This document shows positions 13,017 through 22,140 of a DNA stretch of 23,301 bases, piece by piece. The stretch's first letter is position 1; every line of letters begins with the position of its first letter. The notes under the pieces were generated by a model. It was given only the letters and a program-made list of their open reading frames with translations. It had not been told where the DNA came from and made no database searches. Made by a program: the position numbers and the translations under genes. Origin of the DNA: Chrysochromulina tobinii (Eukaryota; Haptophyta; Prymnesiales; Chrysochromulinaceae). The stretch covers positions 1 to 23,301 of the forward strand of contig JWZX01002185.1 of the NCBI GenBank assembly GCA_001275005.1, written 5' to 3'.

Positions 13017-15431
13017 TTAGGCCGGGCCCTCGATGATCGCTTCGATCTTGGCCCTGGCCGCGAGCATCACCTCCATCGAGCCTTTCAGCATGCATGTGGC
13101 CGAGCCGTTCGCGTCCTTTTGAAGGTCAATGATGGCGCCCGTCTGCTGCCGGAGTCCTTGGATGACTGCACCGCGCGCGCCGATGAGCTTCCCCACGCGG
13201 CTCGCGGGCACATTGATCACGATCATCTCATCGAGCATGCGCGAGAGCGTGTGCTGCACCTCGATAGGCACATCCTCGCGCGTGAGCTCGCTGATCTCGT
13301 CGCGAGCCGCCCGGACGGCTGCTGCCGCGCCGCTGATGGTGACGGTGCCCACGCCATTGTCGTCCTTAGCCACCTCGATCGTCGCGCCACTCCGCTCGCG
13401 CAGCTCCTTAATGGTCGTGCCGCGCTTGCCGATGATGCGCCCCACGAGGTGCCGTTCTACGGCGAGGCGCACCATGCCGCCGCCCTCCCTGGCCGCCTCA
13501 TCGATGCGCTGCGAGTAGTCGCGCTTTCCCGTGTTCGAGCGGAGTACGTCGCGCACCATCGACATCGCCTCGGCGCAGTGGTCGGCCGGCCCGATGATGA
13601 CCACGCGCCGCTGTGTCGAGCCCGCCACCCCATTCTCCGGTGGCTCCACCATGATGGAGACTCCCGCATCGCGTCGGATCGTATTGATCGTCTTGCCGCT
13701 CTCCCCAATGACGGCGCCAACCTGGTCCTTGTTGGTCAGCTCAACCTCGACGCGGACCTCGCCATTCGGTAGCGTCCTCGACGTGACACCCATCTCCGAA
13801 AAGCTCGCCGAGCCGTCGACGCTGCCTGCCGCACCGCTGCCACTGCCGTCCGTGGGCAGCGCGGAGTTGCCGCTGCCATCGCCGGACGAACCCACGCCGC
13901 CGCCGTACGCGCCGCCAGCTGCAAGCTCGGTAGCTGCTGCGTCACGTTCCTCGGTGGGCGTGACGATGGCCTCAATACGGCTCTTGGCTTCCTCTATGGC
14001 CGCGTGCGCCCCCCGTAGTGTGAGGCGTACCCAGCCGTCACCTGTGCGCTCGATGGCGACGCGCGCGCCCGCCAGCTTAAGGGCCGTCTTGAGCTGCCGA
14101 CTGCTCTCGAGCGCTCGTGCCTCTTCGGGGTTGAGCAGCAGCATGTACTCCTCCTCGTCTCGATCTCCGGACGGGCGCTCCTCATCTCCGCGATCTCCGC
14201 GATCTCCGTCGACGGGCGCGCGCGGCTCGCCGCTCATCATTGCGGCGAGGTCGGGATCCGATCGGTCGGCCGTTAGGATCATCTTCACGAGGGACGCGAC
14301 GTGGTCGAGCTTCGCCTCGTCACCGTGCACGGTGAGCGTCGCCGCGCCGCTCTCATCTTTGTCGAGTCGGATGTTGGCTCCGCTCTCCTCACGCAGCGCG
14401 TTGATCACAGCCCCCTTGGCGCCAATGATCTTGCCGACGTACTCGCGGGGGATGTTGATCTCCATCAGTCCCTCGCTCCCCGCGCCGCCCTCCTCCTCCT
14501 CGTACTCACCCTCCTCCTCCTCGTACTCACCCTCCTCCTCCTCGTACTCACCCTCCTCCTCCTCGTACGTCGCTGTGCCAGCACTCGCCGCCGCAGTGAT
14601 CGCCGGCGCTCCGTTGAACGCGTCGAGGTCACGCGCGACTTGCCTCAGCGTCGACCGGCTGGCCTCACATCCGTTTGCGGCGCACGCGCCTGCGGCCGCG
14701 GCCGCGGCCCGCGGCAACCCCTTAGCCGCCGACGCTGGTGCAGTCTGCGGCAACCCCTTAGCCTCAGCCACGGGCGCGGGCTGCGGCGACGCCCTGGCCG
14801 CAGAAAGCCACGCGGGCACGGCGCCAGGACCCCACGCCTTTGGCGGCGGTCCAACGGCCGCAGCGGCTGGCTTGCGGCTGCTGTGAGAGACGCCCGACGG
14901 CGGCGGCAGCCCAGTGAGCAGCGGCAGCCCAGCCGACGTCTTGGAGGCGAGTGGACGTGGCCCGCGCGACAAGGAAGGAGGAGGAGCTGCACCGCCGCTG
15001 CCGCCGCCAGTGGGCGCGCCATCCAGAATCCTTGCGATGATTTGGCGCGCGCTCTTGACGGCGTCCACCGGCCCCTTGAGCCGCACGACATCCTCTTCGG
15101 GCAAGCAGATCAGATCGGATGCTTCCTGGTGATTCAGGTCATCGATGGCCTCATCGATGCGCTCCCGTACGCATGGGAGCAGCGTCGGCGGGATCGTCAC
15201 CTCGACCTCCGTCCATGCGCCGGTGGCCGCCGCGGCGGCCTCACTCTCGACCGCGCCCCTCTTGGAGGTGGGTGAGAGGACGCCCGGCGGCAGCACGCCT
15301 GAACCAACCGCCGTCCGGCCAGGAGGAGGCAAAGCTGCGGCTGCTGCTACGGCCGCCTGCTTAGCACCCGCGCTGCTGCTGGATGCCGCCGGTTTCTTCG
15401 TGCCACCCACGGCAGTCTGCTGCTGCAGCAT
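13017..15431 (-). CDS. Multi-KH-domain RNA-binding protein, 804 residues
   Basis: Four canonical KH domains carry an intact GxxG loop: VGKIIGAKG near residue 333, VGAVIGESG near 575, VGRIIGKRG near 667 and VGKLIGARG near 750. Two further KH-like segments, near residues 75-140 and 425-495, keep the strand/helix pattern but lack GxxG. KH loops bind single-stranded RNA or DNA, so a role in mRNA binding, localisation or decay is likely, as for vigilin or PCBP relatives. Between them lie Ala/Pro/Gly linkers, a 12-residue duplication near 225-250 and an acidic YEEEEGE tract repeated four times near 287-315. I start at the first ATG; the frame stays open upstream, but a TGTCTTTCAG acceptor-like site sits just 5', so a leader intron is plausible. 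No nuclear signal is clear. Confidence 0.9.
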   Translation of the reverse strand: MLQQQTAVGGTKKPAASSSSAGAKQAAVAAAAALPPPGRTAVGSGVLPPGVLSPTSKRGAVESEAAAAATGAWTEVEVTIPPTLLPCVRERIDEAIDDLNHQEASDLICLPEEDVVRLKGPVDAVKSARQIIARILDGAPTGGGSGGAAPPPSLSRGPRPLASKTSAGLPLLTGLPPPSGVSHSSRKPAAAAVGPPPKAWGPGAVPAWLSAARASPQPAPVAEAKGLPQTAPASAAKGLPRAAAAAAGACAANGCEASRSTLRQVARDLDAFNGAPAITAAASAGTATYEEEEGEYEEEEGEYEEEEGEYEEEEGGAGSEGLMEINIPREYVGKIIGAKGAVINALREESGANIRLDKDESGAATLTVHGDEAKLDHVASLVKMILTADRSDPDLAAMMSGEPRAPVDGDRGDRGDEERPSGDRDEEEYMLLLNPEEARALESSRQLKTALKLAGARVAIERTGDGWVRLTLRGAHAAIEEAKSRIEAIVTPTEERDAAATELAAGGAYGGGVGSSGDGSGNSALPTDGSGSGAAGSVDGSASFSEMGVTSRTLPNGEVRVEVELTNKDQVGAVIGESGKTINTIRRDAGVSIMVEPPENGVAGSTQRRVVIIGPADHCAEAMSMVRDVLRSNTGKRDYSQRIDEAAREGGGMVRLAVERHLVGRIIGKRGTTIKELRERSGATIEVAKDDNGVGTVTISGAAAAVRAARDEISELTREDVPIEVQHTLSRMLDEMIVINVPASRVGKLIGARGAVIQGLRQQTGAIIDLQKDANGSATCMLKGSMEVMLAARAKIEAIIEGPA
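14497..14571. repeat. 21-bp in-frame tandem repeat in the KH gene
   Basis: CTCCTCCTCCTCGTACTCACC is present about four times in succession, encoding the seven-residue acidic unit YEEEEGE. Copies are nearly identical, so the expansion is recent or kept homogeneous. Confidence 0.9.
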
Positions 15432-15600
15432 CCGACTCCTCTGAAAGACACGACGAACCAAGCTGGAAGACACAGAGCGAGGCAATCTCGTGGGCTGCAC
15501 GTCCACGCGGATGATTCACATTCACACGAACACGTTGGTCCCGCGCATGCAAATTGGGGTGGGGGGGGGGAGGGGGGGGGAGGGGGGGGCTCGTGGTTAG
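15432..15600 (-). promoter_or_regulatory. Candidate promoter/leader of the KH gene
   Basis: It contains an exact octamer ATGCAAAT (15546-15553) and a long G-run (about 15556-15589; C-rich on the coding strand) with A interruptions. The leader ends in an acceptor-like TGTCTTTCAG just before the ATG. The G-run could form a quadruplex or act as a GC-box-like element. Assignment is by position only. Confidence 0.3.
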
Positions 15601-17364: not shown

Positions 17365-20240
17365 ATGGGAAACACCCTCCCGAAGTCCGCCGCCGTCAAC
17401 GTCGACGCTGGGGATTGGACTACGGCTTACAATCGACAGACCAAGACGCTGCAGCTGGAGCGCTCGGCCATGCGATTGAAGATCGGCCATGACACGGACA
17501 CGGACACGGATCATGCATCGATACGAAAGGAAGGCAACGAGATCACTTCTGTGAACGACTTTTCGGTTGTCAAGACACTTGGCAAAGGTGCGTTCGGCGA
17601 GGTCTTCCTCTCGAGCCGCAAGGGTGATCTCTATGCCGTCAAGGTGCTCAAAAAATCTGCACTAAAGCGCATGCGGCAGGGCCGGACAGGCAGCGCTTTG
17701 GATACAGTCAAGACGGAGATCGCCACGATGAAGAAGATCAGCCACCCCAATTGCGTCCAAATGTTTGACGTCATTCTCGACCCCGACCAGGACGAGGTAT
17801 TCCTGGTGCTCGAGTACGTCGACGGTGGCTCGTCGCAAAAGGGCGCCGATGGCAAGCCGCAGCGCCTCCCGCCTCGGACCATCTGGTCGCACCTGCGCCA
17901 CCTTGTCATGGGGCTCGAGTACCTTCACATGAACCAGATCGTGCACCGCGACATCAAGCCGGACAATTTGTTGGTGACGCGGCCGGGCAAGATGTATCCG
18001 GGCGACGCCGGCGTGCTCAAGATTGCTGACTTTGGAACCTCGTGCTTCTGCGAGGGCGATGCAAACGCTCAGAAGACCGCGGGTACGCTGCCCTTGTTCT
18101 CTCCAAAGCCCTCGCGCGCTGAGTGCCGCTGAGTGCTGCTGATTGCCGCTGAGCGCCGCTGGATGCAAAGCATGCAGGTACGCCGCCCTTTTTCTCCCCA
18201 GAACTCTGTTCGTCGGACACGTCGGGCACGTTCGACAACCGCGTGGTGGACCTGTGGGCAGTAGGAGTGACGCTCTATTTGTGGGCAAGTGCTCGGGTTC
18301 CCTTTGAAGCGCCTACGGCCATGCTGTTGCTCAAGCAGATCTCTGAGGCTTCGGAGATCACCCCTGCGCCGCCCGAGGTGCAGGAGATGGGCCTCCGTGA
18401 GGTCATCGGGGGCCTGCTGACGCGTGACCCGGCCACGCGGCTCACGCTCGCTCAGCTCCGCCTGAATGCGTGGCTCACTGACCACGACAAGCAGCCCCTT
18501 CCCCTTCAGCCAGAGTCGAACGTCCAGGTCAGCCCGGAGGAGATCGAGCAGGCGGTGACCAACCGGTCTACCATCAAGTTTGGTTCGGCCTCAGGGCCGT
18601 CGGCGCTCGGCGCGGCGCTTGCGTTGTGCGGCACGGGCGACTCCACGTTTGGGTGGTTACGGATTGGCTCGAATACCATCCGCAAGCGCTCCAACCTGGC
18701 CGAGGCGAACTTTTACCGAGCGATCGCAGCGAGTGGGCACCTGGCACCGCACCTGCCGATCATCTACTCGATCTCCGGGGCGGAGAGCAGCAGTGACGAG
18801 TTCATGCGGCTCGGCGCGACCGAGGGGGTCGGCAGAGAAGGCGGCACGAGTAGCTCGGGACATGCGAACTACGGCGCCAAGCCCAAGCGCGCGCGATCCA
18901 GCTTTGGGCTCAGCTTCGGTAGCAGTCTGAAGCGCATGGTGAGCTTCAGTGGTGGCAGCCCTAAGCGCATGGCGAGCGGTGGCAGTAGCCCTACGCGCAT
19001 GGTTAGCGTCACCGCCACTACCTCCTCCGACAGCGACGCGGCGACGACTCTGTTTCCGCGCGAGGCCGCCTCGACTCCGGCCGCGAGCGGCTTGCCTAAG
19101 GCGGCCTCATTCGATCTCCGCTCCGGCGAGCTCCCGAGCGTCGGGGGCGCCGACGCGGTCGACGCGGCTGTGGCCAGTGTGGACGACGTGGCCGTTATGG
19201 GTGATGTGGGCGGTGGGGACCTGGGAGGTGGGGACCCGAGTACGGCTCTGGCACCGGAGCCTGAGGAAGCTGTCCCTACGGCTGTGAACGAAGCTGTCCC
19301 TACTCCTGTGAAGGAAGCTGTCCCTACGGCTGTGAACGAAGCTGTCCCTACTCCTGTGAAGGAAGCTGTCCCTACGGCGGCACGCGCCGTCACGAGCAGA
19401 ACGGCCGCGCCGCCCTCTCGCTCTCTGGCTGGAACCACCGAGGATGTGGTGCACATCCTCATGGGGGATTTGGTCACGGGAATGAGCCAGCCGTGTGCCA
19501 TGTCGTTCCTAATGGGCGTTCGGACGATCACAGCTATCGACCTCGGGCCAGAGCAGGCGACGCCAAACGCGGCTTTGTGTGGCTCGATGCGCTCGATGGC
19601 GCCGGAGCGCGCTGCCCAGATGCTGACCGCAGAAGAGAAGGAGGCCGGTGCGGTACCTCTCCACAGGTACCTTGAGTTCCTCGACACCATCTCAACGAGT
19701 CGAACGCTCGGATTCCGCATCGATGCTGCCAAGACGGTTGTCAACGGCTCTCTCGATCTGCTCCCGCTATCCGAGGGCACCACCCTCAATACGCTCGCTG
19801 ATGAAGCGCAGACTGCGGAGGCCATCGCCATATTTTTGCAGCGGGATGCTGGGCTCGCGGTCGCCACACTCCTCAAGTTGAAGACGCTCGAGGCCGCACT
19901 TATGCGCTCCACCTTCTTTGCGCGGCATGTCTTTCTGAGGACCACAATGCTCCTCGTCTTTGACGATGCTCACCGTTCAAAGGGTGTCGACCTCAAGATC
20001 ATGAACTTCGGCTCGTCGTACGCTCTGCCTCCGAGCATGACTGTGAAGCACACCGAGCCGTGGGACGGCACGGCCGAGTGCCATGAGGACGGCTACCTTA
20101 CCGGTGTGCGCTCGCTCCTTCGGGTCGTGCAGCGCGTGTGTGACGCGCTTGCACCGCAAGCGAAGGTGACGCCTGCCGCGGCGGCTACGGCGCAGGAGAG
20201 CACAGGCAACGCACAGGGCGATGCGGCAGGCGCGGATTGA
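17365..20240 (+). CDS. CaMKK-like protein kinase fused to a degenerate inositol-trisphosphate 3-kinase domain, 926 residues, two exons
   Basis: Exons 17365-18082 and 18178-20240 join in frame. The kinase domain has the Gly loop GKGAFGEV (73-80), Lys93, Glu118, HRD (194-196), DFG (222-224) and, restored by splicing, AGTPPFFSPE (239-248), so it should be active. The KSALKRMRQ stretch, the DP..D loop and the DLWAVGVTLY region resemble calcium/calmodulin-dependent kinase kinases. Residues about 390-440 and 660-900 match the inositol polyphosphate kinase fold: EANFYRAI, an MGVRT strand, RTLGFRI near 750 and HEDGYLTG at 875. The catalytic PxxxDxKxG motif reads PCAMSFLMG (678-686; Asp to Ser, Lys to Leu), and the metal-binding IDF reads MNF (Asn849). 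That domain is probably a non-catalytic sensor or scaffold. A 220-residue Ser/Ala-rich insertion splits it. An ATP-site Lys may remain in TIRKRS. Confidence 0.9.
18083..18177 (+). other. 95-bp intron in the kinase activation segment
   Basis: It starts GTACGCTGCC and ends GCATGCAG, and interrupts the codon for Gly240. Splicing yields the conserved TAGTPPFFSPE segment; without it the frame ends 15 codons into the intron. Its first 23 bases match the first 23 bases of exon 2 at 20 positions, and its 3' half is a decamer repeat. Confidence 0.95.
18111..18166. repeat. 10-bp tandem repeat inside the kinase intron
   Basis: GAGTGCCGCT, GAGTGCTGCT, GATTGCCGCT and GAGCGCCGCT follow one another, flanked by partial units (CTCGCGCGCT before, GGATGC after). 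Confidence 0.9.
19266..19383. repeat. 24-bp in-frame tandem repeat in the kinase linker
   Basis: Five units encode EAVPTAVN, EAVPTPVK, EAVPTAVN, EAVPTPVK and EAVPTAAR. The alternation makes a 48-bp higher-order unit. It lies in the long insertion of the inositol-kinase-like domain, just before the domain resumes. Confidence 0.95.
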
Positions 20241-20529
20241 GTTTATTGAGAGGTTCTGGACGGAGGGTGCGACAGAGAACGTGCGCGCGGGGCTTGAGCG
20301 TTGAGGTGTTGTCTACCACGACCTGAGCAGCTTAGAGCATTGCTTGTTGGTCCTGGAAGGATGAGGGATAGGTTGACCTGGGCTTTGCCCATACTACAGC
20401 GCGGGCGATGCATGCATCGCGGCGCGTTTTATGAGGCGACGTTGAGAGATTCAACCGTTATTTCTGGACGGTGTTCCTTTCGCCGCGCCACGCACCATTG
20501 GAGCACATCGCGCCCTGAAATCCTGCACG
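20241..20529. other. Intergenic region between the fusion kinase and the Sfi1-like gene
   Basis: 289 bp between two genes on the same strand. It must hold the 3' end of the kinase transcript and the promoter of the next gene. GCGATGCATGCATCGC near 20404-20419 is a perfect 16-bp palindrome and the only standout element. Confidence 0.5.
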
Positions 20530-22140
20530 ATGAAGAGGAAAACATCTCGACCTCAAGTTGATTCTCTTCAGCTCCGCCTGATATCAGCTCGTCGAGAGCT
20601 TCTCTCCGATATCGTGCGACAGATCACCTCAGGTCCGTCAGACGGCGTCGCAAAAAGCTTGACCGTCGCCACGCTTCGTCGCCACGTGGATCAAGTGCAA
20701 GAAACGAAGCGAGAGCTAGCGACAGCGGACACCGCGCGCGTTAGAGCCTTACTGACGAAAATCTCTCCGACAGTGCATTCGCCGAGTAGCCATGACTCAG
20801 ATGAGCTCCTCCGGCTCGCGGAACGAATCTGGATTCCTTACTGCTCCGGCTGCGCATTTGCACAATGGATGGCTTTCACAACGGCCCAAAACATACGACT
20901 TCGGCGAGCGTATGTGCGCCATCTCATTGAGACACATTCGAAGATACGTCTCAACCTCACGTACCCTGCCCTATTACGCGCTGCGTTGCACCACTGGCGC
21001 ACCGCTGAGGCATGCTCGCAGCCCAAACTGCACCGCTCGTGCACGCACTTTGCACAGTACAAGATCTACTCGCGCGTCTGCAAGTCGTGGCTCGCAGTGA
21101 CACTCCGCGCACGCAACCTCGAGAGCATCCACGCGAGCGTGCGTCACTTGGAGCAGCGGCGGGGGCTTGTGAAGGGGCTCCGTGCATGGTCCGAGGCGAT
21201 CGCGGCACAGAAATCGGCACAGCCGCTCGCCTTCGCGGCGCTCTGTTGGTACGTCCACCGTGAGCTCAGTAGCTGCTGGCAACGGTGGACCCCGATCATG
21301 GCGCTGGCGGTGGAGCGAGCGCGCATGAATGGTGTCAGCCGACAACTTTGGACGCAGTCTTGTCTCTCGCTTGCATTCTATGCGTGGCTCGAGCTCGCGG
21401 GAGAGCGCATGCGCAGCTGCATGCATGCACCAAAAATTGGTTTCTCAACCTGGTGGCATTCGCATTGCCTGACGCGAGGCTTCAACGCGTGGGTCGAGGC
21501 AGCAGCATCGCGATCAGTCGAGCTGGTGTACGCGCGTATGTCCGTCAGCCAACTGACGCAGAGTACACTCACCAGCTGCAGAGTTGCGCTGGTGGTGTGG
21601 CATGCGAAAGCGCAGCGGCGCGCGCGCTACCAGCTTCTTGGATTGGTCATCGATCGACGCTCCGGGCAGCTGTACATCAGGCGACCCTTTGCACGATGGT
21701 GTGAGTATGCCAACGAGAACTTCCGCGCCGCAGCACTAGCAAAGCTCCGTGTCGAAGAAGCGCTTGATATGGCATGGCGCTGGAGCAGTGCGACGCGTAG
21801 CAAACTCATGGAAGTGACGCAAAGAGTCCACAGCGGCCCGCAGCCGCACTTTCGTGAGGACTTTTGTGACGAACGAGGCTTGATGTTGGCCGAACATCAA
21901 AAGGTCTTCTTGAACGTTCGACCAAGGAGACTTGTTGAAGCTCTCGTGGACATGCCTGCATGCTCCGAACCTAACTCTGAACCCACGGAGCACGGAACCC
22001 TTGCAACATGCGATTGGCTCCCAGTGCTGCAGGCCTGGGATGCGCTTGCGCATGTCGATCCAGCAAGTATAGTGGCCGCCATCCATGCCTTGTCAGACGA
22101 GGAAGCACGTGCATTGTCTGCTGCCCTCGGCCTCGACTAG
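20530..22140 (+). CDS. Sfi1-like Trp-repeat protein, probable centrin-binding, 536 residues
   Basis: A single-exon gene whose middle is a series of helical repeats, each with one conserved Trp after an aliphatic/aromatic pair: W113, W156, W187, W220, W253, W286, W321, W357 and W390. Spacing is 31-43 residues and most often 33. Examples are CAFAQWMAF, ALHHWRTAE, GLRAWSEAI, LAFYAWLELA, GFNAWVEAA and PFARWCEYA. This periodicity and the basic flanks match Sfi1 repeats, long single helices that bind centrin at centrosomes, basal bodies and spindle poles. Residues 1-90 form a charged helical N-terminus; 400-536 are non-repetitive with an acidic end. Sfi1 proteins are often longer, so this is a short member or a related axonemal/basal-body protein. 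No transmembrane or enzyme motif is present. Confidence 0.75.
   Translation: MKRKTSRPQVDSLQLRLISARRELLSDIVRQITSGPSDGVAKSLTVATLRRHVDQVQETKRELATADTARVRALLTKISPTVHSPSSHDSDELLRLAERIWIPYCSGCAFAQWMAFTTAQNIRLRRAYVRHLIETHSKIRLNLTYPALLRAALHHWRTAEACSQPKLHRSCTHFAQYKIYSRVCKSWLAVTLRARNLESIHASVRHLEQRRGLVKGLRAWSEAIAAQKSAQPLAFAALCWYVHRELSSCWQRWTPIMALAVERARMNGVSRQLWTQSCLSLAFYAWLELAGERMRSCMHAPKIGFSTWWHSHCLTRGFNAWVEAAASRSVELVYARMSVSQLTQSTLTSCRVALVVWHAKAQRRARYQLLGLVIDRRSGQLYIRRPFARWCEYANENFRAAALAKLRVEEALDMAWRWSSATRSKLMEVTQRVHSGPQPHFREDFCDERGLMLAEHQKVFLNVRPRRLVEALVDMPACSEPNSEPTEHGTLATCDWLPVLQAWDALAHVDPASIVAAIHALSDEEARALSAALGLD

Follow-up and report, generated by a model that had tools for sequence, protein, structure and literature searches.

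One reading frame near the 3' end of the window appears to join a protein kinase related to CaMKK to a domain of the IP3 3-kinase (IP3K) type that lacks the residues needed for catalysis. This raises the questions of whether the fusion is real, whether the second domain has truly lost its chemistry, and what such a domain might do for the kinase. The window (the whole stretch of DNA analysed, 23,301 nucleotides) is contig C1081 of the 53.15-Mb assembly of 2253 contigs in which the genome searches were made.

Gene model and domain identity

The window gene encodes 926 amino acids in one frame, interrupted by one 95-bp intron (17365–18082 joined to 18178–20237, with the stop codon ending at 20240). 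Its features are as follows.

17365..18082 (+), exon 1: N terminus (MGNTLPKS...) and kinase from the N-lobe to the activation loop, based on the translation and a Pkinase match of 5e-35
17560..18449 (+), protein kinase domain, residues 66–330, with the intron inside it; CaMKK-like, catalytic motifs intact
18083..18177 (+), intron: 95 bp, GT-AG; neither paralogue has an intron at that place
18178..20240 (+), exon 2: kinase C-lobe, linker and apparent pseudo-IP3K
18531..18611 (+), junction: SPEEIEQAV (358–366) and GSASGPSALG (375–384), conserved in the paralogues
18645..18785 (+), IPK N-lobe, residues 396–442
18786..19433 (+), low-complexity insert of 216 residues (443–658), separating the IPK N-lobe from the C-lobe
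19264..19378 (+), 48-bp tandem repeat within the insert, 2.4 copies, in frame, reading EAVPTAVNEAVPTPVK
19434..20099 (+), IPK C-lobe and IP-lobe, residues 659–880, based on the PF03770 match (1.6e-11) and the IP3K match (1e-20)
19491..19517 (+), PCAMSFLMG where PxxxDxKxG is expected; Asp is replaced by Ser682 and Lys by Leu684
19998..20012 (+), IMNFG where IDFG is expected; Asp is replaced by Asn849

An alternative acceptor at 18153, which would add eight codons, is likewise open, but both paralogues run continuously through T[AV]GTP.FFSPE at the intron site, and so the acceptor at 18177 is favoured. The opening 26 bases of the intron are identical to the opening 26 of exon 2 at 21 positions (18083–18203), and a 10-bp repeat lies within the intron (18117–18161). 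Together with the lack of this intron in the paralogues, these features make it look like an intron gained by tandem duplication. Two other frames in the window were noted: an 832-residue frame at 13017–15515 (−) carries KH domains in four stretches (KH_1, 1.5e-55), and a 564-residue frame at 20446–22140 (+) has no Pfam match at E 0.01 and contains recurring tryptophan-rich helical units, which by eye we take to resemble Sfi1-type repeats.

The initial annotation had identified the first half as a CaMKK-like kinase, and our searches bear this out. Exon 1 matches Pkinase at 5e-35, and its nearest solved structure is that of CaMKK2 (6cmj, 3.3e-27). The start of exon 2 also matches Pkinase (4.2e-6), at 26.8 bits, a score that falls under the cut-off of 31.7 with the exon 2 half scored alone. 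The motifs GKGAFGEV (73–80), HRDIKPDN (194–201) and DFG (at 222) are intact. The C-terminal part matches PF03770 (IPK) over model positions 1–189 of 190 with 44.9 bits (1.6e-11) against a cut-off of 22.2, and its best solved match is IP3K A/B (1tzd, 1e-20), as expected from the assignment of this part to the IP3K type. The lack of a significant IPK match had been named initially as grounds for rejecting the fusion; the match obtained is significant. A search of NCBIfam returned bacterial models only, mostly kinases, none near its cut-off, and single-sequence structure prediction of exon 2 alone was uninformative (pLDDT 36.1, pTM 0.19). Within the IPK N-lobe, IRKRS has its Lys opposite a Lys of IP3KB that we take to be the ATP-site Lys.

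Three fused genes in one genome

A genome-wide search with the IPK profile gave four matches above the cut-off. Two of these, on contigs C2248 and C1323, belong to genes related to the window gene in the kinase and IPK parts alike. C2248 carries both domains in a 699-residue unspliced frame (Pkinase 1e-46, IPK 4.2e-18), which makes the fusion independent of any inferred intron. C1323 has both matches (Pkinase 3e-54, IPK 2.6e-9) in one frame that continues up to an inferred intron, which interrupts the IPK tail only. The PF03770 scores of the window, C2248 and C1323 copies (44.9, 66.4 and 37.7 bits) all exceed the curated cut-off of 22.2. The claim that the window gene is a real fusion therefore stands: there are three such genes, and two adjacent genes or a bad splice can be ruled out by C2248, which is made without any splice. 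The low-complexity insert of the window gene is absent from C2248 and shorter in C1323 (residues 427–492).

The fourth IPK match, on C1858, retains VDIKVG and IDF, which indicates that intact IPK motifs are detected where they are present; the 860-residue piece scanned has no Pkinase match. For the haptophyte Emiliania huxleyi, Table 1 of PMC8024741 gives a count of five IPK proteins. Conversely, C2022 and C433 (L032 and L033) are CaMKK-like relatives in which no IPK match was found, either in their frames or in the genome-wide IPK search. Their starts read MGAACS and MGAGCS, respectively, and the kinase is followed by other, partly basic sequence of roughly 100–200 residues. Of these two, C433 alone was compared with solved structures, and it is CaMKK-like by its best match. 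The spacing from HRDIKPEN to DFG is 237 residues in C2022 and 200 in C433. A scan of viral contigs with the C2248 protein found nothing.

All seven catalytic kinase patterns are present in each of the three fused genes, and on this evidence their kinases are likely to be active. In the comparison of fused kinases with solved structures, which covered the window gene and C2248, the C2248 kinase scored 166 bits with CaMKK1 and 120 with the best match outside the CaMKKs; by sequence score, CaMKK is clearly the nearest kinase. In a nine-row kinase tree, which leaves out five badly cut rows of a 14-row tree, the three fused kinases group together with support of 100/99, and they also lie on one side of a branch in the 14-row tree. 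The split that holds the fused kinases, CaMKK and C1335 is weak (70/63), so the descent of the fused kinases from CaMKK is weakly resolved.

Catalytic residues, substrate pocket and selective constraint

Alignment to the IP3KA and IP3KB chains confirmed the exact positions at which the initial annotation had placed Ser682, Leu684 and Asn849 in the window gene, opposite the catalytic Asp, Lys and Asp. In the window, C2248 and C1323 copies, Asp262 of IP3KA is replaced by Ser, Ala and Gly, Lys264 by Leu, Val and Leu, and Asp416 by Asn in all three. PxxxDxKxG has thus kept its Pro and Gly and lost its Asp and Lys in every copy, and IDF reads MNF, MNF and INF. At the SLL motif (SSLLF in IP3KA), the copies read TTMLL, TTLLF and SGLLL. 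It had been suggested that orthologues with intact motifs would point to a sequencing error; the comparison made here was with paralogues, and both C2248 and C1323 proved degenerate too. Because the catalytic residues are lost in all three genes, neither sequencing error nor mis-splicing explains their loss; error at the motifs is ruled out by the agreement of three separate contigs. That the whole arrangement is an artefact of gene modelling or assembly, with neighbouring genes joined or motifs misread, is highly improbable: the one intron of the window gene is inferred, but C2248 is intron-free and the three contigs agree.

From these substitutions, the IPK domain is very likely to be without InsP3 kinase activity. 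It could still be an enzyme that works through other residues or catalyzes a different reaction, given that the match covers the IPK model wholly or for the most part, that dN/dS is below 1 (see below) and that Asn is chemically close to Asp at the metal site. We consider this improbable in view of the alteration of three catalytic positions, including the PxxxDxKxG pair, which has become Ser, Ala or Gly and Leu, Val or Leu. The domain instead appears to be a pseudo-IP3K, an old metabolic enzyme reused as a regulatory part.

The initial annotation had suggested that such a domain might sense inositol phosphates, a function for which the substrate pocket of IP3K should be informative. We assumed R285, K312, R319 and K419 of IP3KA to be InsP3-contact residues. 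The residues K264, M288, K291, Y315, M316, R331, E333 and K347 of IP3KA are named in PMC10876669, which gives K264 as a contact residue; when the IP3KA numbering was checked, all of them fell on the right letter. K264, K312, R319, K347 and K419 are replaced in all three copies, and K291 in two, being basic in C1323 only. At R285, two copies are gapped and the third has Gln; gaps in the copies make the alignment unsure throughout this region (R285–K291). Four other positions, R268, R314, R331 and K336 (Lys, Lys and Arg in the three copies), are basic throughout, and Tyr315 and the N-lobe Lys are kept in all three. The IP-lobe is of IP3K length (60, 54 and 57 residues in the window, C2248 and C1323 copies vs 58), and it contains 5, 6 and 4 Lys and Arg residues, respectively, vs 12 in IP3KA.

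We also compared the loss of basic residues with the loss of other conserved residues. Between positions 246 and 350, the two IP3K references share 17 basic sites, 10 of which have no basic residue in any copy, and 32 of the 67 non-basic sites that are identical in the references are also altered in all three; the same comparison for positions 351–460 gave 5 of 6 basic and 28 of 63 non-basic sites. As the copies are only 29–32% identical to IP3Ks, this overall divergence is high, and the total loss of charge is just somewhat above drift, so that the argument is carried by the named contact residues. The replacement of K264, K312, R319 and K419 in all three copies weakens the case for InsP3 sensing by an IP3K-type site and makes that claim less probable. 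A wider form of the idea, in which the pseudo-domain binds an inositol phosphate, phosphoinositide or nucleotide through altered contacts and signals to the kinase, would fit the four positions that are still basic, the retained Tyr315, N-lobe Lys and IP-lobe length, and the presence in the genome of PI-PLC-X matches (on two contigs) and one RYDR_ITPR match. The replaced contacts (K291 in two copies, the other five in all), the uncertainly aligned gap, gap and Gln at R285, and the depleted IP-lobe charge count against it, and we regard it as unlikely.

A pseudo-domain might also be a passenger that has been decaying since two genes fused. In the IPK C-lobe and IP-lobe, the copies are 52%, 49% and 48% identical (window–C2248, window–C1323 and C2248–C1323, the order used throughout), with dN of 0.40, 0.50 and 0.44, dS of 1.16, 1.34 and 1.02, and dN/dS of 0.34, 0.37 and 0.43; the kinase values of dN/dS are 0.28, 0.28 and 0.35. 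These ratios were obtained by the simple counting method of Nei and Gojobori from GC-rich DNA in which dS is about 0.9–1.3. Third-position changes outnumber second-position changes in the C-lobe and IP-lobe in all three pairs. Constraint is weak in the N-lobe between the window copy and C1323 (0.60/0.78), and the N terminus looks nearly free between the window copy and C2248 (0.80/0.84). The 216-residue low-complexity insert of the window copy and this weak N-lobe constraint are what a decaying passenger would predict, but the excess of third-position changes, the dN/dS of 0.34–0.43 and a frame that is open in all three genes indicate that the domain is constrained and is not debris. We therefore consider decay improbable.

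Position and proposed role of the pseudo-domain

In the fused genes, the kinase is followed by V[ST]P.EIEQA..NR, then by SA.GPS.LG, and then by the IPK N-lobe. The V[ST]P.EIEQA stretch resembles the stretch that follows the kinase domain of the CaMKKs, and the junction lies where CaMKKs presumably carry their autoinhibitory and calmodulin-binding tail. The fused genes thus resemble CaMKK1 and CaMKK2 in the best solved match of their kinase and in this stretch; unlike them, they have no autoinhibitory or calmodulin-binding tail that could be recognised by eye, and have an IPK fold there instead. C2248 and C1323 start with MGC..S[KR], which fits the N-myristoylation pattern, and so probably act at a membrane; the window copy fails the pattern (Pro6).

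The anatomy of the fusion is well supported; the mechanism that we propose is inferred from it. The pseudo-domain would have been gained, and its chemistry lost, before the three genes split. Judging by its position, it may stand in place of the autoinhibitory and calmodulin-binding tail of an ordinary CaMKK, and it would act in cis, either packing on the kinase and setting its activity or docking the kinase to a partner or substrate. The pseudo-domain may hold the kinase, as was also suggested initially. The link between calcium and inositol-phosphate signalling put forward in the initial annotation is conjectural; the genome does contain matching pathway components, namely the PI-PLC-X and RYDR_ITPR matches. 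We lean towards the reading that the pseudo-IP3K is an in-cis regulatory or docking module of a CaMKK-like kinase, the most plausible use left for a domain that is conserved but lacks its chemistry. A more specific account, in which an IP3 3-kinase was captured by a CaMKK, lost its catalysis and substrate pocket, and is now an in-cis switch that replaces the calmodulin-binding tail, making this the first pseudo-inositol-kinase family, is offered tentatively, as something that may well not hold in full.

Several known systems share part of this arrangement. The fused copies resemble ITPKA, ITPKB and ITPKC (PF03770) in their 29–32% identity, their IP3K-length IP-lobe and the landmarks TLGFRI and HEDGYLTG, and differ from them in lacking PxxxDxKxG, IDF and the InsP3 contacts and in being joined to a protein kinase. 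In the JAKs (JH2-JH1), an active kinase and a dead domain of the kinase fold lie in cis, and dead protein-kinase domains are well known as regulators. Plant tandem kinase-pseudokinases also combine the two in cis (PMC6170490). The dead domain of such tandems is a protein kinase, whereas here it belongs to the inositol-kinase branch of the fold. The Plasmodium HDAC2-IPMK fusion likewise joins an IPK-family domain to an unrelated enzyme, but the partner is different, and its IPMK2 keeps PxxxDxKxG (PMC12694804). Among the open-access papers that our searches listed, we found none describing a CaMKK-IPK fusion, a pseudo-IP3K or a dead inositol-kinase domain. If the proposed role is correct, the fold of the IPKs would share with that of the protein kinases, which it resembles, the capacity to become a regulator, and a calcium-type kinase would have gained a form of control for which calmodulin may not be required.
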